64,000 nucleotides of DNA from positions 124,001 to 188,000 of the IMG/VR virus record IMGVR_UViG_3300017917_000952. One strand, given 5' to 3'. The notes below the pieces were generated by a model, which saw only the letters and a list, made by a program, of their open reading frames with translations, had not been told where the DNA came from and made no database searches. This DNA is from a virus. Shown in pieces: positions 8,899 to 53,568 of the stretch (positions are counted from its first letter, which is position 1; each line of letters opens with the position of its first letter). Both the position numbers and the translations under genes were made by a program.

Positions 8899-10632
8899 AT
8901 GTCTTGGAAAAAATATTTTACACCCGTTGACACAAGTGGTAAACTTAGCCCTATTAGCGGTGCTATGAATATGGGGTCGGGTGCAAATCCTAGCCGTTCA
9001 AACTATTCTAGTTACTTACCCGACATTTACGCTGGACATCCTAACCGTCTAGAGCGTTATGGTCAATATGATACTATGGATACAGACAGCGAAGTTAACG
9101 CTGCCTTTGATATTCTTGCAGAATTCTGCACACAGGCCAATGAAGAAAACGGAACCCCGTTCCAAATTTTCTTCAAAGATCAAGCAACACAAACTGAAAT
9201 CAAGATCATTAAGAAGTATCTACAACAATGGACACGAATGAACAAGTTTCAAATTCGTATGTTCAAAATTGTTCGGAATGCATTTAAGTATGGTGACAGT
9301 TTCTTTGTCCGAGATCCGGAAACACAGAAGTGGTTGTATATTGATCCAGCAAAAGTAGATAAAATTATTGTTAATGAAAGTGAAGGCAAAAAGCCTGAAC
9401 AGTATTTCATTAGAGATTTTAATCCTAACTTAGAAGCACTGGCAACAACTGCGATTCAGCCAACAAACGTACATGGCGGCGGAAGCCAGTTCGGCGGAGC
9501 ATATAACTCTGGTCTAGGCGGCGCAGGTGGTAGCAGGGGTATGACTGGTAGTTATCCTACTGGCGCATCTGGTACAAGATTCAGTGAAAATCAAAATCAA
9601 TATGCTATTGATGCACGACATGTCATTCATATTAGCATGAGCGAAGGTTTAGACAACAATTTCCCATTTGGAAATAGTCTAATGGAAAGTATCTTTAAAG
9701 TTTTTAAACAAAAAGAACTATTAGAAGATGCTATCTTAATCTATAGAATACAACGTGCTCCTGAGCGCAGAGTATTTTATATTGACGTCGGTAATATGCC
9801 AAGCCACTTGGCTATGAGTTTTGTTGAGCGTGTAAAAAACGAAGTTAATCAACGCAGAATTCCTAGCGTAACAGGTGGAGCCCAGAGCGTCGTAGATGCT
9901 GCATATAACCCATTAAGCATTAACGAAGATTATTTCTTCCCACAAACCGCAGAAGGTCGAGGTAGTAAGGTTGAAATTCTGCAAGGCGGACAAAATCTAG
10001 GAGAGATCGATGATCTTAGATATTTTACTAATAAGTTGTTTCGTGCTTTACGCATACCTAGCAGTTATCTACCTACCGGCTCTGACGACGGAGGATCTAA
10101 CTTCAATGATGGTAGAGTTGGAACAGCCTACATTCAAGAACTTAGATTCAACAAATACTGCGAACGACTACAAAGTCTCCTAAACGAACCGTTCGATACT
10201 GAATTTAAGATGTATCTACATACCCAAGGTATTAATGTAGATAACAATGTTTTTGAAATTAAATTCAATCCTCCGCAAAATTTTGCCGCATATCGACAGG
10301 CAGAAATGGATACTGCTCGTGTTAATACATTTAATACCATGGTTGCAGTCCCGTTTGTAAGCAAGAGATTTGCTATGAAGCGTTTCTTAGGTATGACTAC
10401 AGAAGAAGTTGCAGAAAACGAACGTCTATGGCGCGAAGAAAACATTGATGAAGATCAATATCTAAGCGCAAGTAGTGAACTTCGAGGTGCTGGAATCACA
10501 GCAAACGGTATAGCATCTGACACATCAACGCTAAGTGGTGCAGCAACACCACCGCCCGAAGCAGTAGAAACACCTGCAGAAGGCGGAGCAGCCGCTCCTG
10601 CGGCCGGCGCAACACCACCGCCAGCGGCATAA
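8899..10632 (+). CDS. gp20: gp20 portal vertex protein
   Basis: A 577-aa protein (T4 gp20 is 524 aa) with portal hallmarks: YDTMDTDSEVNAAFDILAEFC near the start, FRIVRNAFKYGDSFF-type region, PFGNSLMESIFKVFKQKELLEDAILIYRIQRAPERR, and the C-terminal KFNPPQNFAAYRQAEM region. Twelve copies form the packaging channel at the unique head vertex and dock the gp17 motor. A glycine-rich loop (about residues 190-220, GGGSQFGGAYNSGLGG) looks like an insertion, and the C-terminus is an Ala/Pro-rich tail. The stop codon is overlapped by a late promoter for the next gene. Confidence 0.95.
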   Translation: MSWKKYFTPVDTSGKLSPISGAMNMGSGANPSRSNYSSYLPDIYAGHPNRLERYGQYDTMDTDSEVNAAFDILAEFCTQANEENGTPFQIFFKDQATQTEIKIIKKYLQQWTRMNKFQIRMFKIVRNAFKYGDSFFVRDPETQKWLYIDPAKVDKIIVNESEGKKPEQYFIRDFNPNLEALATTAIQPTNVHGGGSQFGGAYNSGLGGAGGSRGMTGSYPTGASGTRFSENQNQYAIDARHVIHISMSEGLDNNFPFGNSLMESIFKVFKQKELLEDAILIYRIQRAPERRVFYIDVGNMPSHLAMSFVERVKNEVNQRRIPSVTGGAQSVVDAAYNPLSINEDYFFPQTAEGRGSKVEILQGGQNLGEIDDLRYFTNKLFRALRIPSSYLPTGSDDGGSNFNDGRVGTAYIQELRFNKYCERLQSLLNEPFDTEFKMYLHTQGINVDNNVFEIKFNPPQNFAAYRQAEMDTARVNTFNTMVAVPFVSKRFAMKRFLGMTTEEVAENERLWREENIDEDQYLSASSELRGAGITANGIASDTSTLSGAATPPPEAVETPAEGGAAAPAAGATPPPAA

Positions 10633-10635
10633 ATA
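10628..10635 (+). promoter_or_regulatory. late promoter CATAAATA overlapping the gp20 stop codon
   Basis: The TAA stop of gp20 lies inside CATAAATA. T4 spacing puts the transcription start on base 10641, the A of the next ATG, so the transcript would be leaderless. Confidence 0.6.
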
Positions 10636-10640
10636 TTCAT

Positions 10641-10889
10641 ATGATACTAAGAGAATTCATATACTTTGATCGCGATCATGCTGATCCTCAAAAGGACAAT
10701 AGGTACATTAGTAAAAATGATACCAGTGTTCTTAAGAGTTCTGACCTACGTAAAACTCGTTTAACACTAAAAATGATTAACGAAATACGCAGAGCAGCCG
10801 AAGCACACGATAAAGAAAAGCGTGAAGAATTAGGCTTGGTACGAAAAATGTACGCTGCACCACCGCCTGAAGCGGCCGCAGCAGCATAA
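10641..10889 (+). CDS. prohead core-type small protein (gp67 position)
   Basis: An 82-aa charged helical protein (SSDLRKTRLTLKMINEIRRAAEAHDKEKREELG) ending in Pro/Ala repeats. It occupies the place of T4 gene 67 between the portal and the rest of the prohead genes, and marine T4-like phages have a similar conserved small protein here. Probable role: minor prohead core component; no catalytic motif. No Shine-Dalgarno is visible and the late promoter overlaps the end of gp20, so it may be made from a leaderless transcript as well as by read-through. Confidence 0.7.
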   Translation: MILREFIYFDRDHADPQKDNRYISKNDTSVLKSSDLRKTRLTLKMINEIRRAAEAHDKEKREELGLVRKMYAAPPPEAAAAA

Positions 10890-10949: not shown

Positions 10950-10976
10950 TATTTCAAGCCGATATATTAACTGTGC

Positions 10977-15882: not shown

Positions 15883-15890
15883 GGTAAATA
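15883..15890 (+). promoter_or_regulatory. late promoter GGTAAATA at the start codon
   Basis: The motif ends 4 nt before the ATG at 15895; T4 spacing puts the transcript start at 15896, on the start codon. Confidence 0.6.
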
Positions 15891-15894: not shown

Positions 15895-16401
15895 ATGAGC
15901 ACACAATGGCATTCTCCTACTCTAATAACACAGTACGCTGAAGATCCTTCACACATTGAATGGAACACCGACTTCGATACCGTGATAACCTTAAATGGCG
16001 GTCTTGCACTTTCTAAACCTTTGTTTCATATAGCTCGACAACCAAAGAATGATATTAAATCAAAGTCTTGGTTTTTAAGTGCAACAAATTTTAATTTTCA
16101 AAATCTCCCATCTATTGTAAACGGAATTTCTCTCAAAATAACTGCAACTAGACAAGGTCGTGTTACAGACGACACTGTTCAATTAGTGCATAACGGAGAA
16201 CTAATAGGAGAAAATAAGTGTTCAAGATCAGTTAACCCTGTAAATGTCTACGGCAGCGAATCAGATGCCTGGGGTGTTGAAAATTTAACAAGCATAATAC
16301 ATGATCCTTCATTTGGTATAGTAGTTAGATTTAAAAGTCATCCAGACTGGCCTCATTCTACCACTCCAATTTTAAGAGGCTTGGAACTTCAGATCTACTA
16401 A
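15895..16401 (+). CDS. virion structural protein, unknown
   Basis: A 168-aa beta-rich protein (TVITLNGGLALSKPLFHIARQ, ISLKITATRQGRVTDDTVQLVHNG, SFGIVVRFKSHPDWPHSTTPILRGLELQIY). The FGIV/VRFKSHPDWPH... end recalls small jelly-roll-like structural proteins found before the large fibre gene in marine T4-like phages. Expressed from its own terminator-promoter boundary, with no Shine-Dalgarno beyond AGG, so probably a leaderless transcript. Likely a fibre- or collar-associated protein; the exact role is unknown. Confidence 0.7.
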   Translation: MSTQWHSPTLITQYAEDPSHIEWNTDFDTVITLNGGLALSKPLFHIARQPKNDIKSKSWFLSATNFNFQNLPSIVNGISLKITATRQGRVTDDTVQLVHNGELIGENKCSRSVNPVNVYGSESDAWGVENLTSIIHDPSFGIVVRFKSHPDWPHSTTPILRGLELQIY

Positions 16402-16404: not shown

Positions 16405-16412
16405 AATAAATA
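16405..16412 (+). promoter_or_regulatory. late promoter AATAAATA
   Basis: Expected start near 16418; short leader containing AAAGGAA before the ATG at 16433. Confidence 0.6.
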
Positions 16413-16432
16413 CCCTAAAGGAATCTAAAATA

Positions 16433-19400
16433 ATGGCGGGAAATAGACAATCAGGAACAAGGTCACTAGCCCCAAAGAGCGGGTCAGTTCAATCTCCTAA
16501 TTCATCTTTTATTTCACAAAATGATAACGGTGTAACGCTGGTATTATCATCGTCTACTAACATAGGCGGATTTTTAAGAGTTGTAAATGCAGGGACCGGT
16601 CTTTCCTTTGCTGTTATTAAGAATAACGCACAAAACGTTGGAAGTGTAAACAATCCTACAGGAAATGATCCACTTGCTCCTATAGATCAATCGTTGTTTA
16701 GTACTACGGCTCAGAGACAAACGGCAGGTGCATACTTTGCCGGTGGTGTCGGTATCGAAAAGGACTTAGCCGTAGGCGGATTTATCTACGGTCGTATTGC
16801 TGCTGCCAACACAGCAACCACGGCATCTAACATTGCTGTCTTAGAAACTAACGAAGATAAGAGATACTTCCCATTATTCACTGACGAAGATGGTATGATT
16901 GTGCAAGGCGCACAGATCTACGGTGATATTTTAAATCAAGACGGCAGCGAAGGTGGCCTGACCTATAACCCATACCTTGGTAAAATTACTACTGAGCGAG
17001 TTAAGATTAAATCTACAGATGATGCATCTAGTGTAGAAAGTGCTGCATTGTCTGTAGATGGTGGCGCCGGTGTTAAACTCAACTTAATGGTTGGACAAAA
17101 TATCATACCAGAAAGTGACGGTAGCGCAATTGGTACTGAAGAAGTTAGTTGGAGAGATGCATATCTAACTAATATCTATACAAAATTTTTAGGTAATACG
17201 AACAGCAACATCACACTAAGTCCAGCGGGCGGAGAAGGCATTGTTGAATTGTTCGGAGACATTCGCGTAAGAGGTAATAACCCAGTAGGTACTGCACCAG
17301 TTGTTACAAATACACTGTATGTAACCATGGACGGTAACGACACTAACGACGGCCGTGCAATGGATCCGAGCCGTGCTTGCCGTACAATTGGCGGTGCAAT
17401 GAACAGTCCGTACTATCAACCAGGCACACAGATTCTAGTAAGTCCTGGTCGTTATTTAGAAGACAACCCCTTAGTCATGAAGCCTTATACTTCGGTAAGA
17501 GGCAGCGATATTCGTACAACGTTTGTTGAACCAATTAACAAAACTCAAGACTTGTTCCATATGAATAGCGGTTGCTATTTAAACTATATGAACTTCTTGA
17601 ATGGCCGTAGCGGCAAGTTACCTGGCCAATACAACGAACGATTCAACAGAGGTGCGTTTGCAACAGCGTTCCCTCCTCAGACAGGTGATAACAGAATTGA
17701 CCTGTTCCAGAGTCCATATATTCAAAACTGTACTAACCAAAGCGGGCCATGGTTAATTGACGGTACAATGTTTGTACCTAACCAAACCGTTCAAGTACCT
17801 CAAGCAGTAGCAGTAGGATCTTGGGAAGCAAATACTACAACATTACTAGTTAATGTACAGCAAGGCGATATTGTAATTGGCCAGAGTATCAATCCAGGTA
17901 AACAAAATCCAGGATTCTTCAACGCAAGAACATTACTGCTAGCAAACAAGCCCTTCATTCAAAGTCAAACCGTTGCTTGGGTAAACACAAACTTCCCTGG
18001 CTTTGTTTATAATGAACAACTATGCTTTAGAGATGCCGGCATTTTAGTTGAAAACATGTCTTATGACATGGCCTTCGGCGGAAATGAGAAGAGTGTTGAA
18101 AGCGGGCTTTCATATTACAGAGGTGTAACTAGTGTTATTGCAGGACAAGAAACACAGACTGTAGGGGCAATCGAATACATTAAGTATCTATGCAGCCTAA
18201 TTGTCGAAAACAACACTTGCCCTGTCCTTACACCTCCGGCAAATATTCCTGTAAATTCTCAGGTCATTAACCTTAACTGCACAGGCGGTGCTATTGCATT
18301 AGATTCAATTGACAATTTATTTGACATCGTTATTGATATTATTAACAATGGTCCCGATGCTGCTCCTGATCTGTATATTGGTCCTGGACCTGACGCAGCC
18401 TTTGTCAGTGCAGAAATTTTAATGCAGGCAAACAGAAAGTTTATTCAAGAAATTACTCTTGATCATATTAACACTAACCTGTGTGTGCCTCCAAAGAGTT
18501 TACCTTATAACCAAATTAGATGCAAGAGAGATGCATTAATTATTCTTGACAGTGTTAGTTCAGACCTGTTATTTCCAACAACAGGAAACAGTCAGAGTAC
18601 CTTTGCAGGTATTCAGTATTTCTCCCAAGGCGGATACACCGGAAGTATACCGGCTGAAATTACTGCAACTATCGCAGCAATTACATACCTAAGAGATTTA
18701 AGTTTAGAAATTGTACAGAACATTACAGCAGAGATGGATGCAGTGTTAGGTATCTATCGATATACTGTTGGCGCACAAACTACTGCTAGTAACTATGCAA
18801 CAGCCTCCGAAGTGGCTACTCTAAAATCTGGATTTAATAACATCCTAACAATCTTAGGTGGTAAATCTACCGGATGGACTGACTTGATTGTACCAAACGG
18901 CGGTGAACCTAGTCCGTTTACTAGTGTAAAAAATGCCTACGATTTATTATTAGCAAATACCAGTTACATCCAAGGAGAAATTATTGGATTTGTAACTGCA
19001 AACTATCCAACACTGGTCTACGATCAGGCAAAATGCGAACGAGATGTAGAGTATATTCTACAGAGCCTTGCGTTTGATTTACTCTACGGAGGAAATCGTC
19101 AAAGCATTCAGGCAGGTCTAAGTTATTATTCTAATCTAACAGGCGTAACTGTTATACCAAATGAAACAACAGCAACAATAGATGCATTTACATTTATGAA
19201 AGATGTTGCAGTTGATCTTATTCAAGGTAACGCATACACACCAATTCAGACTAGAGTAAAACCAGTAACAGGATTACCGTTAAGTGATGCATCTGCTGCA
19301 ACAGAGATTACTAAGATCTTTAGCACAATCACAGATATTATCTTATCTGGTCCTAGTATTGCTGCTCCTCTTGAACCAATTAATTTAACTAGGTCCACTA

Positions 19401-21847
19401 GTACAACGGTAATCAATGCATTTGATATTATTAAAGCAAACAAGAATTTTATTGTTGCTGAAATGATTGCATATCTTGATAATACATATAATCCTGGAAG
19501 TTTTAACTACGACCAAGAATTGTGCTATCGAGATGTTGGCCTGATTATCGACGCAGTTAGCCAGGACATTCTATTAGGCGGAAATCAAAAGTCTCTCGAA
19601 GCAGGTCTAAGTTATTGGAGCGCCGGATACAATTACGTTTCTGGCCAAGTCTCTACAACAACGGCTGCAATTAACTATGTTCGCGATGTTGCGTTACAGG
19701 TAATTGCTAACACTACAGTAACTGGAATAACAAATACAGTTACAAAACAAGTAATTAATACCTTCTTCCAGTATGGCGGCGACTACATGCCGCAGGAAGC
19801 AGTGTCTAGAAACTTTAATATCATTACAGATATTATTGAGAACGGACCTGCGGTAGCACCTCCTATATATGCAGGCGGTGGTCTGTTTAGCCTAACAGGT
19901 CTGAATGGCAGTTCTGTAAAGATCGCACCAAAGGTAACTAGCGTTAACGAAGTCAGTACTGGTACATATTTGATCGGTTTGAACACAGCAACAATCGGAT
20001 TTGGAAAAAATGCAACATTGTATTTCGGAGAAACTGCGGTTTATCCGTTACAAGATGCACAAGTTTCTGCAAAGAGCTTAGAATACACAGGCAATGCAAC
20101 TACCTGGGATGAAAGAAAAGTAGATCCTAACGGTTCTATGGGCGGTAGTCTTGTTGACGGTGGAGTAATTAGTGATCGAAGCCCGATCCAGTCGTTTGTT
20201 TACGATGCGTTTACTCAACTTAACCAGGGCGGTGTTGGTATCAAAGTTACTAACAACGGCTACGCACAGTTAGTTTCTGTGTTTACAATTTTCTGTTCCG
20301 TGGGTGTTCAATGCGATAACGGAGGTATTGCTTCTATTACTAACTCTAACTGTAACTTCGGTGACATATCGTTGCTAGCAAAAGGCTACGGTAAGAGAGA
20401 GTTTAGCGGTACAGTATTCAATCCAAAGTTTAGAGCATATCCTTTCAGTCCTAACGGCCCGGGATTGCCTTACCTTGATCAATTCTATCCAGAGGGTTAC
20501 TGGCCTAACAATGGCGGTCGTGTTGAAGTGTTTGTCCCAGACACAGCAAACAGACCTCACATTGGCCTAGTAATGGAAGTTGAGCCCCCACTAGGCTATC
20601 TAAACGAACAAAGTTTACCAGGGTTCTTAAATGCTACACCTAGCACCAGCACACTAACAACTGGCACAATCAACCTAACAGGCATCAGTACAACTGATGT
20701 GTTTATTGGTAACGAATTAATTGTTAGAGATCAATTTGGTAGACAGTATGACGACAACGGCGTCTACTATGTTGCTACCGGTACTGTAGTTACAGATGTT
20801 AACTATAATTCAATTAGCCTCAGCAATGCACTAACTAGTGGCGGCGGGGATCCGACTAACCCGACATACTTTACACTATATTTCTGCGGAAATAGTTATT
20901 ACACAGTCCTTACTAGCGCAGTAGCAAACCAACCTTATGCTCCTAATACAAACATATTAGCAGCAAACAGTGATCCGTACTATCAAGGCCCACCAACAAG
21001 CCAGATTGCGGCTCACGTAACCGCACTTCAACATATGAGAAGTGTTGTTGATGCAGTTATTGATAATATACCTGTTACGCCTACCGCAGGAAATACTGCT
21101 ACGCAGGTTATTACTCCGTCTATCGTTGGCGGCGTACAAGCTCAGGCCTTTGTTGACTTACACATCGAATACATTATTGATATAGTCAATGCACCTAATT
21201 ACGCAGCAGCAACCGCAGTGGTTCCGCAAAGTCAAATACTAGAATCTGGTACTATACCCAATGGCGCGGGTAGTTGTATAATCTTGATTGAATCAAATAT
21301 AGAATTTATCGCACAAGAAGTTGCGGCCTATGTTGATTTTTGGTTATCGGGCGGCATAGGCAGTTACGATAAAACAAAATGTATTAGAGACATTAAACTA
21401 ATCTTACGACAACTAATTTATGATCTACAAAGTGGCGGAAACTATAATAGCATTTACTCTGGTCTAAGTTACTGGAGTCGTCCAGGCACACATCACATTG
21501 TTGAACTAGGCGAAGCGGTTGCAAGACCTGAATACTTCCCAGACGGTGCTATTATTAATTTCTATCAAAGAAGTTATATCAGTGCCAGCGGATACCTATT
21601 TGAATATGTAGGAGCAGGTACTAACTATGGCGCATTACCTCAACGTGGCGTAGCAGATCCTGTACAGAGTAAAGAAACAGTTCAGTTAAACGCAGGTAAG
21701 GTATTCTTTACCAGCACCGACCAGAACGGTGACTTTAGAATTGGTCCAGGATTAGTAATTAGTCAGGCAACGGGTGTTCTAAGCGGTAGAACATTCGTTC
21801 AAAGTTTATACGCAAATATGACTCCATTCATATTAGCAATTGAATAA
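16433..21847 (+). CDS. 1804-aa fibre-like structural protein with beta-helix domain and repeated helical units
   Basis: Very large virion protein. N-terminal fibre modules with AGGVGIEKDLAVGG and DGGAGVKLNLMVG (about residues 98-225); then a beta-helix-type domain (YVTMDGNDTNDGRAMDPSRAC, about 300-390). After that come at least five diverged copies of a unit of roughly 100 residues with Cys-x-Arg-Asp at residues 531, 697, 868, 1031 and 1650 (LAN..FI, then CxRD, GGN..S...GLSYW). A second beta-helix-like stretch lies between copies 4 and 5. The end, DQNGDFRIGPGLVISQATG, is typical of marine phage fibres. Probably a long tail fibre or whisker; the receptor is unknown. Confidence 0.8.
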   Translation: MAGNRQSGTRSLAPKSGSVQSPNSSFISQNDNGVTLVLSSSTNIGGFLRVVNAGTGLSFAVIKNNAQNVGSVNNPTGNDPLAPIDQSLFSTTAQRQTAGAYFAGGVGIEKDLAVGGFIYGRIAAANTATTASNIAVLETNEDKRYFPLFTDEDGMIVQGAQIYGDILNQDGSEGGLTYNPYLGKITTERVKIKSTDDASSVESAALSVDGGAGVKLNLMVGQNIIPESDGSAIGTEEVSWRDAYLTNIYTKFLGNTNSNITLSPAGGEGIVELFGDIRVRGNNPVGTAPVVTNTLYVTMDGNDTNDGRAMDPSRACRTIGGAMNSPYYQPGTQILVSPGRYLEDNPLVMKPYTSVRGSDIRTTFVEPINKTQDLFHMNSGCYLNYMNFLNGRSGKLPGQYNERFNRGAFATAFPPQTGDNRIDLFQSPYIQNCTNQSGPWLIDGTMFVPNQTVQVPQAVAVGSWEANTTTLLVNVQQGDIVIGQSINPGKQNPGFFNARTLLLANKPFIQSQTVAWVNTNFPGFVYNEQLCFRDAGILVENMSYDMAFGGNEKSVESGLSYYRGVTSVIAGQETQTVGAIEYIKYLCSLIVENNTCPVLTPPANIPVNSQVINLNCTGGAIALDSIDNLFDIVIDIINNGPDAAPDLYIGPGPDAAFVSAEILMQANRKFIQEITLDHINTNLCVPPKSLPYNQIRCKRDALIILDSVSSDLLFPTTGNSQSTFAGIQYFSQGGYTGSIPAEITATIAAITYLRDLSLEIVQNITAEMDAVLGIYRYTVGAQTTASNYATASEVATLKSGFNNILTILGGKSTGWTDLIVPNGGEPSPFTSVKNAYDLLLANTSYIQGEIIGFVTANYPTLVYDQAKCERDVEYILQSLAFDLLYGGNRQSIQAGLSYYSNLTGVTVIPNETTATIDAFTFMKDVAVDLIQGNAYTPIQTRVKPVTGLPLSDASAATEITKIFSTITDIILSGPSIAAPLEPINLTRSTSTTVINAFDIIKANKNFIVAEMIAYLDNTYNPGSFNYDQELCYRDVGLIIDAVSQDILLGGNQKSLEAGLSYWSAGYNYVSGQVSTTTAAINYVRDVALQVIANTTVTGITNTVTKQVINTFFQYGGDYMPQEAVSRNFNIITDIIENGPAVAPPIYAGGGLFSLTGLNGSSVKIAPKVTSVNEVSTGTYLIGLNTATIGFGKNATLYFGETAVYPLQDAQVSAKSLEYTGNATTWDERKVDPNGSMGGSLVDGGVISDRSPIQSFVYDAFTQLNQGGVGIKVTNNGYAQLVSVFTIFCSVGVQCDNGGIASITNSNCNFGDISLLAKGYGKREFSGTVFNPKFRAYPFSPNGPGLPYLDQFYPEGYWPNNGGRVEVFVPDTANRPHIGLVMEVEPPLGYLNEQSLPGFLNATPSTSTLTTGTINLTGISTTDVFIGNELIVRDQFGRQYDDNGVYYVATGTVVTDVNYNSISLSNALTSGGGDPTNPTYFTLYFCGNSYYTVLTSAVANQPYAPNTNILAANSDPYYQGPPTSQIAAHVTALQHMRSVVDAVIDNIPVTPTAGNTATQVITPSIVGGVQAQAFVDLHIEYIIDIVNAPNYAAATAVVPQSQILESGTIPNGAGSCIILIESNIEFIAQEVAAYVDFWLSGGIGSYDKTKCIRDIKLILRQLIYDLQSGGNYNSIYSGLSYWSRPGTHHIVELGEAVARPEYFPDGAIINFYQRSYISASGYLFEYVGAGTNYGALPQRGVADPVQSKETVQLNAGKVFFTSTDQNGDFRIGPGLVISQATGVLSGRTFVQSLYANMTPFILAIE

Positions 21848-35443: not shown

Positions 35444-35458
35444 TCAAGGAGATTAACG

Positions 35459-39811: not shown

Positions 39812-39819
39812 TATTTATT
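39812..39819 (-). promoter_or_regulatory. late promoter AATAAATA (minus strand) for gp14
   Basis: Reverse complement of TATTTATT. Expected start at 39806, two nt before the gp14 ATG (39804), so nearly leaderless. Confidence 0.65.
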
Positions 39820-39820: not shown

Positions 39821-39828
39821 GCTAAATA
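39821..39828 (+). promoter_or_regulatory. late promoter GCTAAATA for gp13
   Basis: T4 spacing puts the transcript start on 39834, the A of the gp13 ATG. No Shine-Dalgarno is present. Confidence 0.6.
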
Positions 39829-39833: not shown

Positions 39834-40592
39834 ATGACTGAGAACGAACTAGAACGCCAACGAGTTATTGACTATTGCAGAACTATGCTAGGTGATGGCA
39901 TGGTTGATGTTGAGCTCGACCCTGCACATTACAACACTGCTATAGACAGAGCATTAGCAAAGTTTAGACAGCGTAGCAGCAACGCAGTAGAAGAAAGTTT
40001 CGGCTTTTTAACTATACAAGTTGACATAAACGAGTACGTTCTTCCAAAAGAAGTCATGAATGTGCGCCAACTTTTCCGTAGAAGTATTGGTAGCAGAAGC
40101 GGCGGCGGAGAAGGCGGTACGCTATTTGAACCGTTTAATCTAGCATATTCCAACACCTATTTGCTGGCCAGTTCTAACATGGGCGGCCTTGCAACTTATT
40201 ATGCTTTTGCAAGTTATCAAAAGCAGGTAGGAAAGATGTTCGGTAGCGATATTAATTTTACATTCAATAAAACTACAAAGGTCTTAACAATAATGCAGCG
40301 CCCCCGCGCTGAAGAAGAACTGTTGTTATGGATGTATAATCACAGGCCCGACTTTAATCTTTTACAAGATCCTCAAGCAGGGCAATGGTTAAAAGACTAC
40401 AGTCTTGCAACCTGCAAGTTAATGCTAGGCGAAGCCCGCGAAAAGTTCAACAGTATTTCTAGCCCACAAGGCAGTACAAGTCTAAACGGTGCAGCACTCA
40501 AGGGAGAAGGCAAGGCCGAGCTCGAAGCACTAGAACAAGAATTGATCAACTACAAAGACGGCGGAACCCCACTTACTTTTGTAATTGGATAA
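39834..40592 (+). CDS. gp13: gp13 neck protein
   Basis: A 252-aa protein (T4: 309 aa) of the head-completion/neck family: RVIDYCRTMLGDGMVDVELDPAHYNTAIDRALAKFRQRSSNAVEES, the VLPKEVMNVRQLFRR block and LLLWMYNHRPDFNLLQDPQAGQWLKDYSLATCKLMLGEAR. It seals the filled head together with gp14. The gene is divergent from gp14, with both reading frames starting almost at their promoters. Confidence 0.92.
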   Translation: MTENELERQRVIDYCRTMLGDGMVDVELDPAHYNTAIDRALAKFRQRSSNAVEESFGFLTIQVDINEYVLPKEVMNVRQLFRRSIGSRSGGGEGGTLFEPFNLAYSNTYLLASSNMGGLATYYAFASYQKQVGKMFGSDINFTFNKTTKVLTIMQRPRAEEELLLWMYNHRPDFNLLQDPQAGQWLKDYSLATCKLMLGEAREKFNSISSPQGSTSLNGAALKGEGKAELEALEQELINYKDGGTPLTFVIG

Positions 40593-42437: not shown

Positions 42438-42445
42438 GCTAAATA
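42438..42445 (+). promoter_or_regulatory. late promoter GCTAAATA for gp18
   Basis: Expected start near 42451; leader about 25 nt containing AAGGAG ahead of the ATG at 42476. Confidence 0.6.
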
Positions 42446-42475
42446 TATCAAAGTGAATCCTTTAAGGAGTTTAAT

Positions 42476-45451
42476 ATGGCAACATTACAATCACCAGGCG
42501 TAAGCGTATCAGTTATAGATGAGAGTTTCTATACACCCGCAGGCGCCGGTACAGTTCCGATGATCTTCGTAGCAACTGGTCAAGATAAACCAAATGCATC
42601 CGGAACTGGCATAGCGCAGGGAACAACAGCAGCGAACGCTGGTAAAGTTTGGGTAATTACAAGTCAACGTGACTTGTCCGATACATTCGGTGTACCTTAC
42701 TTTGAAACAGATTCAAGTGGCAACCCTGTACACGGCGGAGAACTAAACGAATACGGTCTACAAGCCGCATACAGCGCACTTGGAGTTAGTTCCAAGGCTT
42801 ACATCGTTAGAGCAGACATTAACACTTCTGAACTAGCACCTAACCCTTCTATTCCTGGCGGTACTCCTGTTAACGGAACATACTGGGTAGTTACTTCAAA
42901 CACAGATTTCGGTATCAACGAGTGGAACGCAAGCACTAAGCGTTTCGTTACTAAGACTCCTTTAATCATTGATAACACAAACGTTGAGCTAGATTTTGAT
43001 CACCAGGCTGTTAGCCCAGCAGGTACAATAGGTCTACCAAGAACAGCGTTTGGAACTGTTGGCGACTACGCAGTTTTAGTAACCAGCGACAACGGTACCC
43101 AACACCCAGAAGGTGTATACTTCAAGTCTCCTACAAATGGATGGGTAGATGTGTTAGACGGATTTGACGGAGGTAAGGTTGTTAGACTAAGCGAACACTT
43201 TAATTATCCTAACTACACAAACGCAGGTCCTGGCGCACTAAATGCACCTACAGGCAGCGTTTGGATCAAGACTACTGCACCGGGCATGGGCGCAAACTGG
43301 GACATTAGAAAGTACAATGCAAGCACAGACAACTGGGATCGTGTAAGTGCTCCTCTATATCCAAGCACACAGGCTGCACTAGCAGACCTAGACGGTGTAG
43401 GTGGTGGATCAAACATTCCATTAGGATCTGTATTTGTACAGTACGATCCACAAGAAACAAACATGGCAGATTTCAGAAAGTGGATTCGTTATAAGTCCGG
43501 TCCTACTTCTGTATCAGTCGAAAGCGACTTCGTAGCCTCAGGAAACTGGGCATTTGACCTTGTAGAAACTGACGAATTTGGTAACAAGAGTTCCACTGCC
43601 ACATTCTCTGGTGTTGCATCTCCTGTTGTTTTAGTACAGAAAATTGCTGAAGCAATTAACAGTAACCTAAACCTAAAGTACACTAAGGCAAGCCATAACA
43701 CTGTTACAAACAAACTAACTATTACACATAGTTTAGGTGGCGACATTCTATTTGCAAATACCGTTGGTCAGCCTTTAGTTGATATCGGATTTGTAGGTGG
43801 CAACGTTCCTGAAATCGAAGGCAACATTGCAAACCTATATACCTACAGCGGCGCATATTGGGACGTCCTTGCTTCTAACTGGAAACCTCTAGTCTACGAA
43901 GCACAGGAAACTGCACCAACTACAGCACCAGATGATGGCCAACTATGGTTCGACAGTGACCTATCCGCAGACATCATGTACAATGATGGGCTACAGTGGG
44001 TTGGTTACCTAAACGCATTCCCAGGATCCGATCCAAAAGGTCCTACAATCAGCGCAACCAAGCCAACTACACAACAAGACGGTGTTACACCTTTAGTTGA
44101 CGGTGATATTTGGATTGACACTAGCGATCCAGACAAGTACGGTAGAAACATTTATGTTTACAATAGCGGTGCTTGGGAAATGGCTGACGTAACCGATCAA
44201 TCTAGCCCAGACGGTTGGGTATTTGAAGACGCACGTTGGTCCGTCAACGGTGAAACTGACCTAAGAGCAGATATCGAGGACCTATTACTAAGTGACTATG
44301 TTGATCCTGATTGTCCAGATCCACGCCTATATCCACGTGGCACACGACTATTCAACACACGCCGTAGCGGTAACAACGTCAAGCGTTATTTTGCAAACTA
44401 CATCGATCCAGATGTAGAAAATACACGTTATAATGACGAAGGTATGGCCGGTTACTTCCTAGGTCGCTGGGTAAGTGCAAGTCCAAATGCACCAGACGGT
44501 GCAGGCCAGTTTGGTCGTCTTGCACAGCGTAGTGTAGTTGTTAAGGCTCTAAAAGAAGAAATTGCAAGCAATACTACAATTAGAGATACTGATACACTAG
44601 TATTCAACTTGATTACTACCCCAGGTTACCCTGAAGTAATTCAGAACATGGTTGCATTTAACATTGACCGAGGCTTAACAGCGTTTGTCATTGGTGATAC
44701 ACCATTCCGTCTACCAGCAACTGGAACAGCATTAACAAACTACGGTATGAACACCGCAGGTGTTGTTGACAACAACGACGAAGGTGCTGTTACATACGAT
44801 ACTAGCCTAGCAATGTACTACCCAAGCGGTTATACAAATGACAACCTAGGCAATGCTATTGTTGTTCCGCCAAGTCACGTTATGCTACGTACATATCTAA
44901 ACAGCGACAACAAGAGCTATCTATGGTTTGCACCAGCAGGTACACGTCGAGGTGTTGCTGACAACGTAAGTAGTGTAGGTTACATTACTGGCGAGGGCGA
45001 ATTCCAGACTGCAAGTCTACACCAAGGACTACGCGATGTTTGTGCAGGTGTTAAGATTAACCCAATCGCAACAATTCCAGGTGTTGGCATTGTTACCATG
45101 GGTCAGTACACTCGTGCAAGCGTAGCCAGCGCATTAGATCGAGTTAACGTAAGTCGTTTAATTGCTCACCTACGTAGACAACTTTCTATCCTTGCTAAAC
45201 CATACTTGTTTGAACCAAACGATTCTCAAACAAGACAAGAAATCAAGGCAGCATGTGATGCTCTAATGACAGAATTAGTAAGTCAACGTGCTCTATACGA
45301 CTTCTTGGTTGTCTGTGACGGAACAAACAACACACCGGCAAGAATTGATCGTAGCGAACTATGGGTTGATATCGCTATCGAACCAGTGAAGGCTGTAGAG
45401 TTTATCTACATTCCTTTACGTATATTGAACACCGGTGAAATATCCGCATAA
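42476..45451 (+). CDS. gp18: gp18 tail sheath protein
   Basis: A 991-aa contractile sheath protein (T4 gp18 is 659 aa). N-terminal SPGVSVSVIDESFYTPAGAG and C-terminal NVSRLIAHLRRQLSILAKPYLFEPNDSQTR plus IAIEPVKAVEFIYIPLRI are the conserved inter-subunit arms and core. The middle (about residues 120-580) contains extra domains, including several W-type beta modules (GSVWIKTTAPG, DGQLWFDSDLSADIMYNDGLQWVGYL, DGDIWIDTSDPDKYGRNIYVYNSGAW). These probably decorate the sheath surface. A 14-nt gap separates it from gp19. Confidence 0.95.
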   Translation: MATLQSPGVSVSVIDESFYTPAGAGTVPMIFVATGQDKPNASGTGIAQGTTAANAGKVWVITSQRDLSDTFGVPYFETDSSGNPVHGGELNEYGLQAAYSALGVSSKAYIVRADINTSELAPNPSIPGGTPVNGTYWVVTSNTDFGINEWNASTKRFVTKTPLIIDNTNVELDFDHQAVSPAGTIGLPRTAFGTVGDYAVLVTSDNGTQHPEGVYFKSPTNGWVDVLDGFDGGKVVRLSEHFNYPNYTNAGPGALNAPTGSVWIKTTAPGMGANWDIRKYNASTDNWDRVSAPLYPSTQAALADLDGVGGGSNIPLGSVFVQYDPQETNMADFRKWIRYKSGPTSVSVESDFVASGNWAFDLVETDEFGNKSSTATFSGVASPVVLVQKIAEAINSNLNLKYTKASHNTVTNKLTITHSLGGDILFANTVGQPLVDIGFVGGNVPEIEGNIANLYTYSGAYWDVLASNWKPLVYEAQETAPTTAPDDGQLWFDSDLSADIMYNDGLQWVGYLNAFPGSDPKGPTISATKPTTQQDGVTPLVDGDIWIDTSDPDKYGRNIYVYNSGAWEMADVTDQSSPDGWVFEDARWSVNGETDLRADIEDLLLSDYVDPDCPDPRLYPRGTRLFNTRRSGNNVKRYFANYIDPDVENTRYNDEGMAGYFLGRWVSASPNAPDGAGQFGRLAQRSVVVKALKEEIASNTTIRDTDTLVFNLITTPGYPEVIQNMVAFNIDRGLTAFVIGDTPFRLPATGTALTNYGMNTAGVVDNNDEGAVTYDTSLAMYYPSGYTNDNLGNAIVVPPSHVMLRTYLNSDNKSYLWFAPAGTRRGVADNVSSVGYITGEGEFQTASLHQGLRDVCAGVKINPIATIPGVGIVTMGQYTRASVASALDRVNVSRLIAHLRRQLSILAKPYLFEPNDSQTRQEIKAACDALMTELVSQRALYDFLVVCDGTNNTPARIDRSELWVDIAIEPVKAVEFIYIPLRILNTGEISA

Positions 45452-46122: not shown

Positions 46123-46149
46123 AAAGCCCGGCAAACACCGGGCTTTTTT
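46123..46149 (+). terminator. rho-independent terminator after gp19
   Basis: AAAGCCCGG, loop CAAACA, CCGGGCTTT and a T-run to 46149. Confidence 0.95.
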
Positions 46150-46153: not shown

Positions 46154-46161
46154 GATAAATA
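46154..46161 (+). promoter_or_regulatory. late promoter GATAAATA at start codon
   Basis: T4 spacing puts the start on 46167, the A of the next ATG; no Shine-Dalgarno. Confidence 0.65.
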
Positions 46162-46166: not shown

Positions 46167-47198
46167 ATGTCAGACGCATTTAATAATTTCTTGAGTGGTG
46201 GCCCTACTACCTCAACTGAAAAACGAACATATAAAAGTTACGCTCATGCGACTAACTTTTATGCTCAAGGTAGAGCCCTCACGAAAGTACCTAAATTAGG
46301 GTTTATATATTTTATATCCTTTAATTTAGCACAAGAAGTAGGAGTAAAATTTGCAGATCACGTTAGAAAAGATTTGGGGTTCCTTGCTAAGAAAGTTGAT
46401 CTTCCTAAGTTTAAGATTACTACACAAACCGTTAATCAGTACAACAGAAAAACCAACGTCCAGACAAAACTAGCATATGACCCGATTAGTATCGACTTTC
46501 ATGATGATACTAGCGAGATAACTTCAGCATTATGGAGAGCCTACTACGACTTTTATTATGCTGACGGTCGACAACCCGACGGACAATTTAGTACAGCATT
46601 TTCGGGCGATACTAAACTTGATTCTACAAACAATTCGTATGGTTACAGCAAAGGTAGTGGCCCAACTTCTTTCTTTAGTTCTATAGATATTTTTGTATTA
46701 AATCAAGGCAGATTTAGTCAATACAGTATTTCTAATCCGTTAATTACTTCTTGGGACCACGATACATTAGAGCAGTCTAACGGTACAAAAGTTCTTCAAA
46801 ACAAGATGTCTTTAACCTACGACAGTGTTGTGTATTCACAGGGATTCATTAGGGGTAGCGAGAATCAAGCAGTTACTGGATCGTTCGAAGCCGTCTGGTA
46901 CGATAAGGATGCTAACCTACCTTTCGGTTATAACGATCCTCTAAAACAGGTAATCAAACCATTTGTACCACAATACCCTACACCGTCCCCGCCGGGTCTG
47001 TCACAGAGCCAACTTGACAAACTATCAACTCAGGTCCCAACATATAGACCACCGAGACCAATTGGCGCAGGAACATTTGGCCTTTCGTCTATTAGACCAC
47101 CTAAGCCATTTAGCATTGATGTATGGTACGGTTATGGCGGATTACACGGCCGAGCAACTGTAAATGCGGGGCCTGTAAGACTTGTATTAAAGAAATAA
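46167..47198 (+). CDS. tube-fold tail/baseplate protein (possible gp54-type tube initiator)
   Basis: A 343-aa protein. The segment PKLGFIYFISFNLAQ, then KVDLPKFKITTQTVNQYNRKTNVQTKLAYDPISIDFHDDTSE and LWRAYYDFYYAD follows the tail-tube pattern (LP plus NRK...K..YDPI...F.DD) found in gp19-, gp48- and gp54-like proteins. A Pro-rich linker and a beta-like tail (IDVWYGYGGLHGRATVN) follow. It lies directly after gp19 with its own promoter. Tube initiator or baseplate subunit is a reasonable inference; gp54 identity is not proven. Confidence 0.7.
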   Translation: MSDAFNNFLSGGPTTSTEKRTYKSYAHATNFYAQGRALTKVPKLGFIYFISFNLAQEVGVKFADHVRKDLGFLAKKVDLPKFKITTQTVNQYNRKTNVQTKLAYDPISIDFHDDTSEITSALWRAYYDFYYADGRQPDGQFSTAFSGDTKLDSTNNSYGYSKGSGPTSFFSSIDIFVLNQGRFSQYSISNPLITSWDHDTLEQSNGTKVLQNKMSLTYDSVVYSQGFIRGSENQAVTGSFEAVWYDKDANLPFGYNDPLKQVIKPFVPQYPTPSPPGLSQSQLDKLSTQVPTYRPPRPIGAGTFGLSSIRPPKPFSIDVWYGYGGLHGRATVNAGPVRLVLKK

Positions 47199-48004: not shown

Positions 48005-48481
48005 ATGACTAAAAAGTTAGAAGAAGTTTTTAACCTGCCACAAGAACCCGTAATCGAGCCTTCTGTTGAAGATACTACTGCACCTATTCCTGTAATAGAC
48101 CTTCAAGAAAAACTAGAAGAATTTGATAAGATTGCAGCAGCACTACCTAAGGTAAAGGGGTTAGGGGATCTAGCCGATGCAGAGTTAGATGCACTAGCAG
48201 CGAAAGCAGAAGAAGCCTATGACAACTTAATGGATTTAGGCATGAACGTAGATGCACGATATGGTGCAAGAATGTTCGAAGTTGCAGCACAGATGATGAA
48301 TGCCGCAATTGTTGCTAAAACTAATAAGATTGATAAAAAGTTAAAAATGGTCGATCTGCAATTAAAGAAACTAGCCATTGATAAGAAAAACGGCGGATCT
48401 AACGAAACTGTTGAGGGTGAAGGTTATATCCTAACAGATAGGAATAGCATCCTAGAAAAACTAAAGAATTTGAATAAATAA
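48005..48481 (+). CDS. gp16: gp16 small terminase subunit
   Basis: A 158-aa protein (T4: 164 aa): a variable Pro/Glu-rich N-terminus, then two long helices EAYDNLMDLGMNVDARYGARMFEVAAQMMNAAIVAKTNKIDKKLKMVDLQLKKLAIDKK, the classic oligomerising core of T4 gp16, and ILTDRNSILEKLKNLNK at the end. It recognises DNA and stimulates gp17 during packaging. Unlike T4, two other late genes separate it from gp17. Confidence 0.92.
   Translation: MTKKLEEVFNLPQEPVIEPSVEDTTAPIPVIDLQEKLEEFDKIAAALPKVKGLGDLADAELDALAAKAEEAYDNLMDLGMNVDARYGARMFEVAAQMMNAAIVAKTNKIDKKLKMVDLQLKKLAIDKKNGGSNETVEGEGYILTDRNSILEKLKNLNK
48473..48480 (+). promoter_or_regulatory. late promoter AATAAATA inside the gp16 end
   Basis: Lies in the last codons of gp16 (48473-48480). 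Expected start 48486, two nt before the ATG at 48488; no Shine-Dalgarno. Confidence 0.6.
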
Positions 48482-48487: not shown

Positions 48488-49081
48488 ATGAAAAACTTCA
48501 AAGAATACCTTCAAGAAAGTGCTCAGCAGAAAAAATACGAATTTCGTGTTAAGGTTGCTGGTGACTTTACTACCGAGCAAGAGACAAAGTTAAAGTCTAT
48601 GCTTGAGCGTTTTCAAGTTAACGCATTTAAAAAAGTAGGAGTTACTCCTATTCAAGCACTTCCATTAGACTTTCCGCAAGTTAAAAATTGTGAAGTTAAC
48701 ATCTACGAAGTTACATTAGATTATCCTACTACACAGCAGGAACTAACAGAATACTTAACATCTGGTCTAGAAGTCAGCAAGCAACGTTTAGTTGTTCGTC
48801 GACCAGGTGAACCGAGTGAAGAATACCAACACGAAGAACCAAAGCGTGAAGGTGCTCTATTAAACGATCCGGATTATAAAGAAGCAGGTAACCCTCAATT
48901 TGAAGATTACTTTGGCGACAAATATAACAGCGGCTTTGTGAAAGAACTTAACGATCTATTAAAACTAGAGCGTAAGGCACGTGGCGAAGAAATTCCTACA
49001 GAAAGTGCTGCTAAGTTCAATACAGATAGTCCGGCTAACACAACTAGCCCAATGCAGGCTGCTAAGGATCCAAGGAAATAA
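48488..49081 (+). CDS. probable internal head protein with CTS-like leader, unknown
   Basis: A 197-aa protein starting MKNFKEYLQESA, closely similar to the capsid-targeting leader of T4 internal proteins (MKTYQEFIAEA); LQE at 8-10 fits cleavage by gp21. The next about 95 residues look like a small alpha/beta domain (YEFRVKVAGDFTTEQETKLKSMLERFQVN, VKNCEVNIYEVTLDYPTTQQELTEYL). The tail (GALLNDPDYKEAGNPQFEDYFGDKYNSG) is charged. It is inserted between the two terminase subunits. Packaging into the head is an inference from the leader. Confidence 0.75.
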   Translation: MKNFKEYLQESAQQKKYEFRVKVAGDFTTEQETKLKSMLERFQVNAFKKVGVTPIQALPLDFPQVKNCEVNIYEVTLDYPTTQQELTEYLTSGLEVSKQRLVVRRPGEPSEEYQHEEPKREGALLNDPDYKEAGNPQFEDYFGDKYNSGFVKELNDLLKLERKARGEEIPTESAAKFNTDSPANTTSPMQAAKDPRK

Positions 49082-49949: not shown

Positions 49950-49976
49950 AATAGCCCCTTCGGGGGCTATTCTTTT
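49950..49976 (+). terminator. rho-independent terminator before gp17
   Basis: AATAGCCCC, loop TTCG, GGGGCTATT followed by CTTTT. Confidence 0.92.
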
Positions 49977-49977
49977 C

Positions 49978-49985
49978 AGTAAATA
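49978..49985 (+). promoter_or_regulatory. late promoter AGTAAATA at the gp17 start
   Basis: T4 spacing puts the transcript start exactly on the A of the gp17 ATG (49991). Confidence 0.6.
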
Positions 49986-49990: not shown

Positions 49991-51568
49991 ATGGCAGCAG
50001 ATAATAAACTAGTAAAGACCGCGCACCAAACGCAGAGATTTACAGAAGAAGATATCGAAAACCTGATGAAGTGTCAGGATCTTCAAACAGGTGCGACCTA
50101 CTTCCTTGAAAACTTTTTCTATATTCAGCACCCTACTAAGGGTAAGATGAAGTATCAGGCTTTTGAATATCAAAAGGAACTATTAAACAGTTATAACTCA
50201 CATCGCTTTAGCGTTAACATGCTAGGTCGACAGATGGGTAAAACTACTACTGCGGTGGGGTTTTTGTTATGGTACGGAATGTTTGTACCTAACAGTACTA
50301 TTCTTATTGCCGCGCACAAATATACAGGCGCACAAGAAATTATGCAGCGTTTACGTTATGCATATGAAATGTGTCCTGATATGATTAGGGCCGGGGTCGT
50401 AAGTTATAACAAGCAGAGTATCGAATTTGAAAACGGCAGTCGTATAGTTGCACAAACAACTACAGAAACAACAGGTCGTGGTATGTCTATATCACTACTA
50501 TACCTAGACGAATTTGCATTCGTTGAACCTAATATTGCAACTGAGTTCTGGACTTCTATTTCGCCTACTCTAGCAACTGGTGGTAAAGCCATTATCACTT
50601 CTACACCAAACAGCGACGAAGACCAGTTTGCCTTAATTTGGAAAGAAGCAAACAAGCGTTTAGACGAGTTCGGCAACAGTACAGAATTAGGAAAGAACGG
50701 TTTCTTCCCGTATATGGCTGTGTGGAGCCAGCACCCTGAGCGTGATGAAAAGTGGGCCAATGAAGAACGTAGTCGTGTAGGCGAAGAAAGATTCCGTCGT
50801 GAACACGAATGTGAATTCTTGGTATTTGACGAAACGTTAATTAGTAGTTTAAAACTTGCCGATCTTGAAGGTACTGAGCCTATTATTAAAATGGGTCAAT
50901 GCCGCTGGTATAAAAAGATTAATCCGAAGTATACCTATATTGTTGCACTAGATCCTAGTTTAGGTACAGGCGGCGACCCTGCAGGTATACAGATCATTGA
51001 ATTGCCTAGTTTTACACAAGTAGGAGAATGGCATCATAACCTAACACCGATACAGGGACAGATACGTATCTTAAGAGATATCTGCCAATACATTTCTGAT
51101 GAAGTTACAAAGCGAGGCGCAACACCTAGCCTGTATTATAGCATAGAAAACAACAGTGTGGGCGAAGCAGGTCTAGTAGTTATTAACGAAGTGGGCGAAG
51201 AAACTATACCAGGTTTGTTCCTAAGCGAACCCATACGTAAAGGACATGTACGCCGCTATAGAAAAGGATTTTACTCAACACATACGGCAAAAATATCTGC
51301 ATGTGCTAAGTTAAAACACTTAATCGAAAGCAATCGTATGCAGATTAACTCTAAAGCACTGATTTCCGAACTAAAGGCCTACATTGCTAAAGGGCTAGGG
51401 TTTGAAGCAAAAACAGGGCAGCACGACGACCTTGTAAGTGCTATGCTTCTAGCAATACGTATGGCTATGGTACTACAGGACTGGGATCCTGCTGTTTATG
51501 ACAAAATGCGCGAAGAACGCGAGGACGAATGGGTTATGCCCATGCCAGTGTATGTGAGCTCGTTTTAA
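49991..51568 (+). CDS. gp17: gp17 large terminase subunit
   Basis: A 525-aa packaging ATPase-nuclease (T4: 610 aa). Walker A GRQMGKTT at 79-86, Walker B LLYLDEFAFVEP with Asp173-Glu174, coupling motif TSTPN at about 203-207. Nuclease domain: VALDPSLGTGGDPAG with Asp321 and Asp329, YYSIENNSVGEAG, and the last acidic HDDLVSAMLLA near 475. It pumps DNA through the portal and makes headful cuts. The start is fixed by the conserved N-terminal helix and a promoter that would give a leaderless transcript. Confidence 0.97.
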   Translation: MAADNKLVKTAHQTQRFTEEDIENLMKCQDLQTGATYFLENFFYIQHPTKGKMKYQAFEYQKELLNSYNSHRFSVNMLGRQMGKTTTAVGFLLWYGMFVPNSTILIAAHKYTGAQEIMQRLRYAYEMCPDMIRAGVVSYNKQSIEFENGSRIVAQTTTETTGRGMSISLLYLDEFAFVEPNIATEFWTSISPTLATGGKAIITSTPNSDEDQFALIWKEANKRLDEFGNSTELGKNGFFPYMAVWSQHPERDEKWANEERSRVGEERFRREHECEFLVFDETLISSLKLADLEGTEPIIKMGQCRWYKKINPKYTYIVALDPSLGTGGDPAGIQIIELPSFTQVGEWHHNLTPIQGQIRILRDICQYISDEVTKRGATPSLYYSIENNSVGEAGLVVINEVGEETIPGLFLSEPIRKGHVRRYRKGFYSTHTAKISACAKLKHLIESNRMQINSKALISELKAYIAKGLGFEAKTGQHDDLVSAMLLAIRMAMVLQDWDPAVYDKMREEREDEWVMPMPVYVSSF

Positions 51569-51575
51569 CTAAATA
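51568..51575 (+). promoter_or_regulatory. late promoter ACTAAATA
   Basis: Directly after the gp17 stop. Expected start 51581, two nt ahead of the ATG at 51583; no Shine-Dalgarno. Confidence 0.6.
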
Positions 51576-51582
51576 ACATATT

Positions 51583-53568
51583 ATGCAACCAATTCAAATA
51601 ATCAGCCAAGACCTGTTCGACAAAGTACGTAGCCGTTTCCAAAACTTAGAAATGGGCGACGAAACAGGAGCAGTTACTATTGACCCTGCCCTAGCACGTT
51701 TCTTTGATTTTGATTTTGTTATCGAAGGTAACAACCTAGGCCGTGTTAGTATCAGTTTAAACGAATTGGGCGCATTAAAAGTTTACTACAGTCAAGGCAT
51801 TACTGAGAATCAGGATGATCCTGCTAAACAGAGTTGGTATAAGTTTCTAAAAGAAATGCGATTCTTTGCTATGCGTAGACTATTAAGATTTGACACTAGA
51901 GATATTAGTAAAACAAATCTTGACAAAAACGATTTTCAACATTTAGCCGCAACGCAGGCGCCTAAGGAACAAGATATGCCAGAAACTATGAACGAATCTA
52001 TGTGGAACCATAAAAGCACAAAGAAAACTAGCCGCGCTGTGCGAGGAACAACAGAAGTTATTGTTCGACACAGTAAAGCAGTTGATGAAATGTACCCTGG
52101 CGCACGTAGTCAACGTAAAAATATCAAGGCAATTTTTATTCAAAACAAGGACGGCGAGCGTTTTAAGTATCCGTTTATTCATCCAGCAGGTGCGTTCGCA
52201 ATGGCACAGCACGTTGACCATGGCGGTGTACCACATGACGCAGCAGGCAAAGCAATTATTAGAATGAGTGAGCAGATTGCTCAACTACAAGAATTTCAAC
52301 GTAAAGTAAGTCGCTCCACCCTGCACGACGATGCCACAGGAATTACAGAGAAGGCCGTAGGCCGTTTACAACAACTAAAAGCACAGGTGGAAGCATTAGG
52401 CAAGCGTCATCACTATGAATGCTGGATGGAAGAATTTGGCGGCCAAGAGGCAGCAGGTGATGACATTATGGAATTAGATGCTGTTACAATGGAACAGTAT
52501 AAGCAAGCATTTACACAAACTAGTTTCCAAGAAGAACTAGCAGGGTACTTCCCGTTATTACACAAGATCATGAGTGAGACAAACACAGTTGATCTTGAAG
52601 ATTACGTTAGCGAAGAAGGCGAAGACGATACTGTTAAAGACGATACCGATTTTAAAGAAGATGCGTTTAATGCATTTGAACAATGGGCAGAAGCAGTTGA
52701 GCAAGGCAAACTTGCCGACGATGAAATCCAATCACTTAAACAGGCAATTCAAGATACACAACAATTAGATCTAGGACCCGACGGACAAACTGCATTCCAA
52801 TTCTTTAGTCAGTTTGGTTTAGATGATGAAGACTTAGAAAACAAATTTAAAGCAGCGGCAGAATTAGACCCTAAAACAGATCCACTTGAAGTATTCCAAT
52901 TATGGGCTCAAGAAAACTATCCTGAAATTCTAGTTGCACTAGGTGTTAGCGGTACAGCAGAACAACCTCCTGCTGCACCCGCTGAACCACCAGCACCCGA
53001 GGCTGGCGCAGCACCTGCACCAGAACAACCTACAGCAGAAAACGAAGAAGAAAAGGGCATGGAAAAAGTAATGCCTACTCGTGAAGGCATTGTTAAAGAA
53101 GTTGCTAAAATTGTCAAGAGTTTCTATAACGCAGATAATCCTAACGTAGGACCATTCCGCGGTGGCGAAGGCATAGCCCTTGACTGCAAAAAACAAGTTG
53201 CTGAAAAATTTGGCGACGAGGCTGGCGAGTTTGCAGAGCAGATTGCCGGTAAGTTTATTGAAAAATTAACAATGGAATGGCAACAGAAACACGGCAATGT
53301 CGGCGATGACGGATTAGCAAGATTGAAAGAACTTGTTCAAAACATTAAAGGCAAAGTAGAGAGCATCGGGGACGTAGGCGGCCATCCTGGTAAAAATATT
53401 ATGCCTGCTCAAGATGAAGGCATTGAAGATCGCTTAAAAGACCTAGATCCGAAAAATCCAGTTAATATTCCTGCATATCAACGTAAGGCTGCGGCCCAAG
53501 GCGGCAATCGACCAAAAGAATCTGCAGAAATGGAAAGCATTTTGAAACTAGCAGGTTTGGCAAAATAA
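51583..53568 (+). CDS. 661-aa late virion-type protein with gp22-like C-terminal tail
   Basis: Large unknown protein. Residues 1-140 start with a compact alpha/beta domain (FDKVRSRFQNLEMGDETGAVTIDPALARFFDFDFVIEGNNLGRVSISLNELGALKVYYSQ); residues about 145-240 include a globular block (TTEVIVRHSKAVDEMYPGARSQRKNIKAIFIQNKDGERFKYP) ending HPAGAFAMAQHVDHGG. Long helices, a Pro/Ala linker (about 465-490) and a second helical domain follow. The end SILKLAGLAK copies the gp22 scaffold tail. It probably belongs to the head (core or ejected protein). Similar proteins occur in marine T4-like phages; function unknown. Confidence 0.78.
   Translation: MQPIQIISQDLFDKVRSRFQNLEMGDETGAVTIDPALARFFDFDFVIEGNNLGRVSISLNELGALKVYYSQGITENQDDPAKQSWYKFLKEMRFFAMRRLLRFDTRDISKTNLDKNDFQHLAATQAPKEQDMPETMNESMWNHKSTKKTSRAVRGTTEVIVRHSKAVDEMYPGARSQRKNIKAIFIQNKDGERFKYPFIHPAGAFAMAQHVDHGGVPHDAAGKAIIRMSEQIAQLQEFQRKVSRSTLHDDATGITEKAVGRLQQLKAQVEALGKRHHYECWMEEFGGQEAAGDDIMELDAVTMEQYKQAFTQTSFQEELAGYFPLLHKIMSETNTVDLEDYVSEEGEDDTVKDDTDFKEDAFNAFEQWAEAVEQGKLADDEIQSLKQAIQDTQQLDLGPDGQTAFQFFSQFGLDDEDLENKFKAAAELDPKTDPLEVFQLWAQENYPEILVALGVSGTAEQPPAAPAEPPAPEAGAAPAPEQPTAENEEEKGMEKVMPTREGIVKEVAKIVKSFYNADNPNVGPFRGGEGIALDCKKQVAEKFGDEAGEFAEQIAGKFIEKLTMEWQQKHGNVGDDGLARLKELVQNIKGKVESIGDVGGHPGKNIMPAQDEGIEDRLKDLDPKNPVNIPAYQRKAAAQGGNRPKESAEMESILKLAGLAK

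Follow-up and report, generated by a model that had tools for sequence, protein, structure and literature searches.

Late promoter boxes set at the start codon point to leaderless late mRNAs in a T4-related jumbo phage

Late transcription in bacteriophage T4 is a textbook system, and the late mRNAs of this phage have leaders with Shine-Dalgarno (SD) sequences. In the structure of the gp55 open complex the A's at -12, -9 and -8 are flipped (PMC7892883), which places TATAAATA at -13 to -6 and the transcription start (+1) six bases past its last A. In studies of cyanophages, late genes have been described as preceded by NATAAATA late boxes (PMC2984593). For cellular bacteria, a box placed some 10 bases ahead of the start codon is an accepted computational predictor of leaderless genes (PMC3160421), and the transcripts measured in L. 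cremoris lack leaders of 4-14 nt (PMC10986495). For the Thermus phage phiYS40, leaderless middle and late mRNAs are reported (PMC3594737), as are a rise in IF2 and a decrease in IF3. A literature search of partial coverage did not turn up any account of late genes being leaderless in T4-like phages.

The DNA analysed here, referred to as the window, is a stretch of 64,000 bases (bases 124,001-188,000) of a virus record with a total length of 206,751 bases; coordinates preceded by G000 count along the full record, all others along the window. The record is that of a T4-related jumbo phage. The window contains a T4-type late cluster, including the genes for the portal (gp20), prohead protease, gp23 capsid, gp13, terminase, sheath, tail tube, gp32 and UvsX. 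The large terminase (gp17) is no more than 54% identical to that of any phage in the annotated collection, the top match being Pseudomonas phage PA5oct; this is also the closest cultured relative, and the 'marine' label that the original prediction had attached to the group could not be established. Of the gene names proposed earlier, gp14 for the minus-strand gene at 39804 is a name by synteny only, its PHROG match being a virion structural protein that has no name. Shortly upstream of the window, at G000 122273-123115, the record encodes a gp55 homologue (phrog_12791, E 1.8e-86; phrog_234, E 1.9e-26); aligned to T4 gp55, it retains Y97 and T99, and H95 is replaced by F. Translation-side causes were also sought, but neither a tRNA gene, initiator included, nor a phage S21 or IF3 gene was found in the 207-kb record.

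Eight genes of the window, all starting with ATG, are preceded by a TAAATA box at a gap of 4, 5 or 7, the gap being the number of bases between the last A of the box and the ATG (Table 1). The boxes and the overlap of two of them with the ends of upstream genes are as originally described. The claim that such spacing is beyond chance also held, since a box at gap 4-8 precedes 8 of the 56 ORFs in the window, as compared with a mean of 0.54 and a maximum of 4 in 2000 shuffles of the upstream 30-mers. Elsewhere in the window TAAATA is depleted, with 33 occurrences found against 71 expected. The case is weakest for the gene at 15895, whose gap is 4. The original prediction was confined to these eight genes, but the pattern is larger, comprising 21 of 213 genes in the whole genome (mean 2.0 and maximum 6 in 500 shuffles) and extending to about 150 related contigs. 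Short-gap genes that could be identified encode the terminase, gp13, a second tail-tube-fold protein, a gp25-like baseplate wedge protein, a peptide deformylase (G000 64407-64901) and a Dps/ferritin-like protein (G000 72872-73318). Besides the latter two, the non-structural short-gap genes include those for an Asp/Asn beta-hydroxylase-like protein (G000 7970-8569) and an AMP-binding enzyme (G000 98-1477).

Table 1. Late boxes, contrasting long-gap boxes and terminator-like hairpins in the window
Feature	Position	Strand	Gap	Gene	Remarks
TAAATA late box	10630-10635	+	5	82-aa gene, 10641-10889	overlaps portal (gp20) stop codon, 10630-10632
TAAATA late box	15885-15890	+	4	168-aa gene, 15895-16401	terminator hairpin just upstream
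TAAATA late box	39812-39817	-	7	38590-39804 (gp14 by synteny)	CT before ATG
TAAATA late box	39823-39828	+	5	gp13, 39834-40592	back to back with minus-strand box
TAAATA late box	46156-46161	+	5	tail-tube-fold protein, 46167-47198	
TAAATA late box	48475-48480	+	7	48488-49081	CT before ATG; overlaps stop of gene ending at 48481
TAAATA late box	49980-49985	+	5	large terminase gp17, 49991-51568	
TAAATA late box	51570-51575	+	7	virion protein, 51583-53568	TT before ATG
Contrast: TAAATA box with SD AAGGAG	42440-42475	+	30	tail sheath, 42476-45451	
Contrast: TAAATA box with SD	16407-16432	+	20	16433-21847	
Contrast: TAAATA box with SD AAGGAG	35438-35458	+	15	35459-35659	GTG start
Terminator-like hairpin and T run	46126-46149	+			-12.6 kcal/mol, z -2.65; ends a few bases short of the 46156 box
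Terminator hairpin and T-rich tail	49950-49977	+			-14.6 kcal/mol, z -4.1; ends a few bases before the gp17 box
TAAATA box overlapping foot of hairpin	53602-53607	+			between the 51583 gene and gp32
13-bp terminator hairpin	53607-53637				

The spacing was then compared in a close set of 80 viral contigs retrieved with gp17 and in a distant set of about 73 further viral contigs, few contigs being common to both. The close set has 154 genes at gap 5 and 242 at gaps 4-8, only 5 at gaps 9-16 and a broad second mode from 17; the distant set has 109, 155 and 6, respectively, with the same second mode, although counts across relatives are not independent owing to common ancestry. The random box-to-ATG distances in relatives that would have spoken against the original prediction were therefore not seen; instead there is a sharp peak at gap 5, and gaps 9-16 are nearly absent. 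By orthologue family, gap 5 is found in 18 of 19 gp13 genes, 51 of 57 members of the 46167 family and 62 of 74 gp17 genes, while the sheath gene has a gap of 29-34 in every relative where a box was found. The short-gap genes form 43 BLAST families, six of them with at least 17 members, and at gaps 3-8 in the close set 284 of 294 start codons are ATG. Among composition-matched control hexamers, clear enrichment was obtained for ATAAAT alone, which overlaps the TAAATA box. The variant box TAAGTA also peaks at gap 5 (25 genes in the close set, 15 in the distant one), and in parts of the clade (contigs L189, L190, L183, L197, L173 and L181) it stands five bases before gp17. An apparent excess of GTG starts at offsets 3 and 5 was discarded, as its source is the hairpin that follows the box near 53602 and not true GTG starts.

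With +1 six bases past the last A of the box, a gap of 5 sets the RNA start on the A of the ATG. As originally worked out, this T4 rule puts +1 on that A in four of the eight genes, on the T of the ATG at 15895, and two bases upstream in the remaining three. In T4 itself a purine occupies the predicted +1 offset in 12 of the 14 promoters that were looked at. The base just before the ATG in the close set is a pyrimidine in 152 of 154 genes at gap 5, 27 of 27 at gap 6, 42 of 43 at gap 7 and 7 of 7 at gap 8, against 58% of genes without a box. The base one position further upstream is likewise a pyrimidine at gap 7 (34 of 35). The distant set shows the same preference at gap 5 (109 of 109), which is weaker at gaps 7-8. 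In nearly all of these genes, therefore, the A of the ATG is the first good initiating purine from offset 5 onward. It is likely, on these grounds, that the gap-7 genes 39804 (minus strand), 48488 and 51583 are leaderless as well, which revises the earlier placement of their +1 two bases upstream of the ATG; a start at the A of offset 4, giving a 3-nt leader, is a possible alternative at this gap. In the sequence logo the first TA of the T4 octamer is not conserved in the boxes of the clade, for which reason the exact pattern TATAAATANNNNNATG gave zero matches; the TAAATA core matches exactly and has the spacing expected of such a box, about one helical turn before +1. Given these two non-conserved bases, the T4 +1 rule might shift slightly. 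With regard to the -35 region, the gap-5 logo shows upstream only a T-richness that comes from terminators, and the long-gap logo shows little.

The two kinds of box placement differ in their SD sequences, called at an anti-SD pairing of -4.5 kcal/mol or better. Short-gap genes have an SD in only 3.3% and 3.2% of cases in the two sets of relatives, long-gap genes in 73% in each set, and genes without a box in about 45%. None of the eight window genes has an SD, their best anti-SD duplexes ranging from 0 to -3.1 kcal/mol, and the long-leader genes named in the original prediction do carry one. Two orthologue families change mode between relatives, and the SD is gained or lost in step: in the 48488 family it is present in 0 of 49 short-gap and 46 of 62 long-gap members, and in the 51583 family in 3 of 91 and 11 of 15, respectively. 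Fisher values obtained in the analysis are uncorrected for relatedness. Along the window, SDs are located at the capsid (13848), sheath (42476), tube (45466) and gp32 (53701) genes, and short gaps at the neck (39834), second tube-fold (46167) and terminase (49991) genes.

Terminator hairpins lie directly 5' of the boxes of gp17, 46167 and 15895. Upstream transcripts should stop there, and these three genes must be read from their own boxes. A stretch of 29 bp separates the start codons of gp14 and gp13 and holds two late boxes placed back to back; boxes diverging at such a distance leave no room for leaders. In this genome and its relatives 17 such divergent pairs, 28-30 bp apart, were found. 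Another pair of this record lies at G000 194161-194192, and in it and the gp14/gp13 pair the start codons are 29-30 bp apart. The box before gp32 has another arrangement, since it overlaps the foot of a terminator hairpin (Table 1). A transcript beginning at the predicted +1 (53613) would be without part of the 5' arm, and this terminator may therefore stop upstream RNA and spare the RNA started at 53613. Similar arrangements of box and hairpin recur in relatives with altered stems.

Several other explanations of these data were considered. The boxes could be late promoters and most of the protein could still be made by coupling from longer read-through RNA, with the very short transcripts being minor. 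Upstream stop codons within about 15 bases of the ATG at 10641, 48488 and 51583 are in line with this, and coupling may add to the expression of these three genes, which lie directly behind another gene. Coupling cannot serve the genes with terminators right before their boxes (15895, 46167 and 49991) or the divergent gp13 and gp14, however, and read-through leaves both the fixed five-base spacing and the pyrimidine before the ATG unexplained, which makes it unlikely as the main route. Since TAAATA is A/U-rich and adjoins the start codon, it could instead be a translation enhancer and no promoter at all. This is very unlikely, because SD-led genes of these genomes have the same motif 17-40 bases upstream, as in T4, because it stands directly behind terminators, where a promoter is needed, and because the phage encodes its own gp55 homologue.

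A different concern is that the start codons were miscalled and the true starts lie downstream, with an SD and ordinary leaders; the starts were indeed chosen by ORF rules, and the N-terminus of gp17 differs among relatives. Against this, predicted starts align at codon 0 in most relatives (83 of 111 in the 48488 family and 89 of 117 in the 51583 family), and where the gp17 start is 3-4 codons earlier, as in some relatives, the gap to the box is still 5. A count of ATGs after boxes that makes no use of ORFs also peaks at offset 5, with 214 cases, far more than at most other offsets, so that miscalling is hardly credible. The spacing could finally reflect chance or simple inheritance among close relatives, whose common ancestry has been noted above. 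The probability of this appears negligible: the spacing is kept although the five bases that make it up differ in sequence, several unrelated gene families share it, shuffles never reach the observed count, and the gp17 proteins that have it diverge to about 52-55% identity.

These data are very probably best explained by gp55-type late promoters that yield leaderless mRNAs for a subset of the late genes. The leaderless reading of the original prediction is thus supported by the gap-5 peak in relatives and by the absence of SDs in the short-gap mode only, and further by the pyrimidine before the ATG, the joint swaps of mode and SD, the terminators, the divergent promoters and the encoded gp55 homologue. 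According to this reading of the sequence, a T4-type gp55-dependent promoter would start RNA on the A of the ATG or no more than about 3 bases upstream, and the resulting leaderless late mRNAs would be translated by SD-independent initiation at the 5'-terminal AUG. Two late modes would then operate side by side, one with the box on the start codon and no SD, serving the terminase, gp13, the gp25-like baseplate wedge protein and others, and one with the box at least 17 bases upstream and an SD, serving the sheath and others. The division between SD-like sequences, which are present at the sheath, tail tube, capsid and gp32 genes, and short gaps, which are present at the neck, terminase and second tube-fold genes, possibly represents a copy-number pattern; it fits a dosage rationale, in which low-copy proteins may be leaderless and high-copy ones SD-led. 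A wider proposal can be made only tentatively and is rather doubtful: in a large, almost wholly uncultured T4-like clade, the promoter-ATG distance would pick leaderless or SD-led expression gene by gene, and a change in late initiation favouring leaderless mRNAs would set virion protein dosage. A clade in which late promoters are fused to start codons would offer a natural experiment in leaderless translation, where the same gene changes mode between relatives, the SD appears or vanishes, and predicted leaders of about 4-11 nt are avoided. It would also provide a sequence rule for start-codon calling in these phages and suggest how a phage could adjust the dosage of its proteins.

Among cultured phages, no box at gap 4-8 was found in the late regions of T4, Phosso, Atu_ph07, a Vibrio jumbo phage, SE_PL and Syn9. 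PA5oct (Arenbergviridae), the nearest cultured relative, has a 54% identical gp17 and the same late gene order, but three quarter-genome pieces with 177 ORFs gave one box at gap 4-8, at a gap-5 structural gene (144985); its boxes are otherwise mostly 16-40 bases upstream and, unlike those of the present phage, form no peak at gaps 4-8. In the gp17 tree the trait extends across a large clade to which PA5oct belongs, whose own sub-group is mostly without it, and searches from three other branches again gave PA5oct-type phages as the nearest cultured relatives. Mapping of the gp17 trait on the FastTree tree required up to 15 changes, which is an overestimate since automatic start choice mislabels some rows, for example contig L015.

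The present system has in common with T4 late promoters the TAAATA core of TATAAATA, a sigma factor of the gp55 family and the location of boxes upstream of late structural genes. It differs in that the first TA of the T4 octamer is not conserved and in the distance, since the T4 late region examined has its boxes 9-46 bases from the gene, in most cases with an intervening SD, and has none at gap 4-8. phiYS40 is likewise reported to be a phage with leaderless middle and late mRNAs, which are here predicted from sequence; its host differs, and its infection reportedly raises IF2 and lowers IF3. No IF3 gene is present in the record of the present phage. The absence of 4-14 nt leaders in L. cremoris matches the gap in the distribution found in this clade. 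Leaderless genes of cellular bacteria resemble the short-gap genes in that a box lies some 10 bases ahead of the start codon and an SD is absent, but theirs are host promoters, whereas here the phage late box takes that place.
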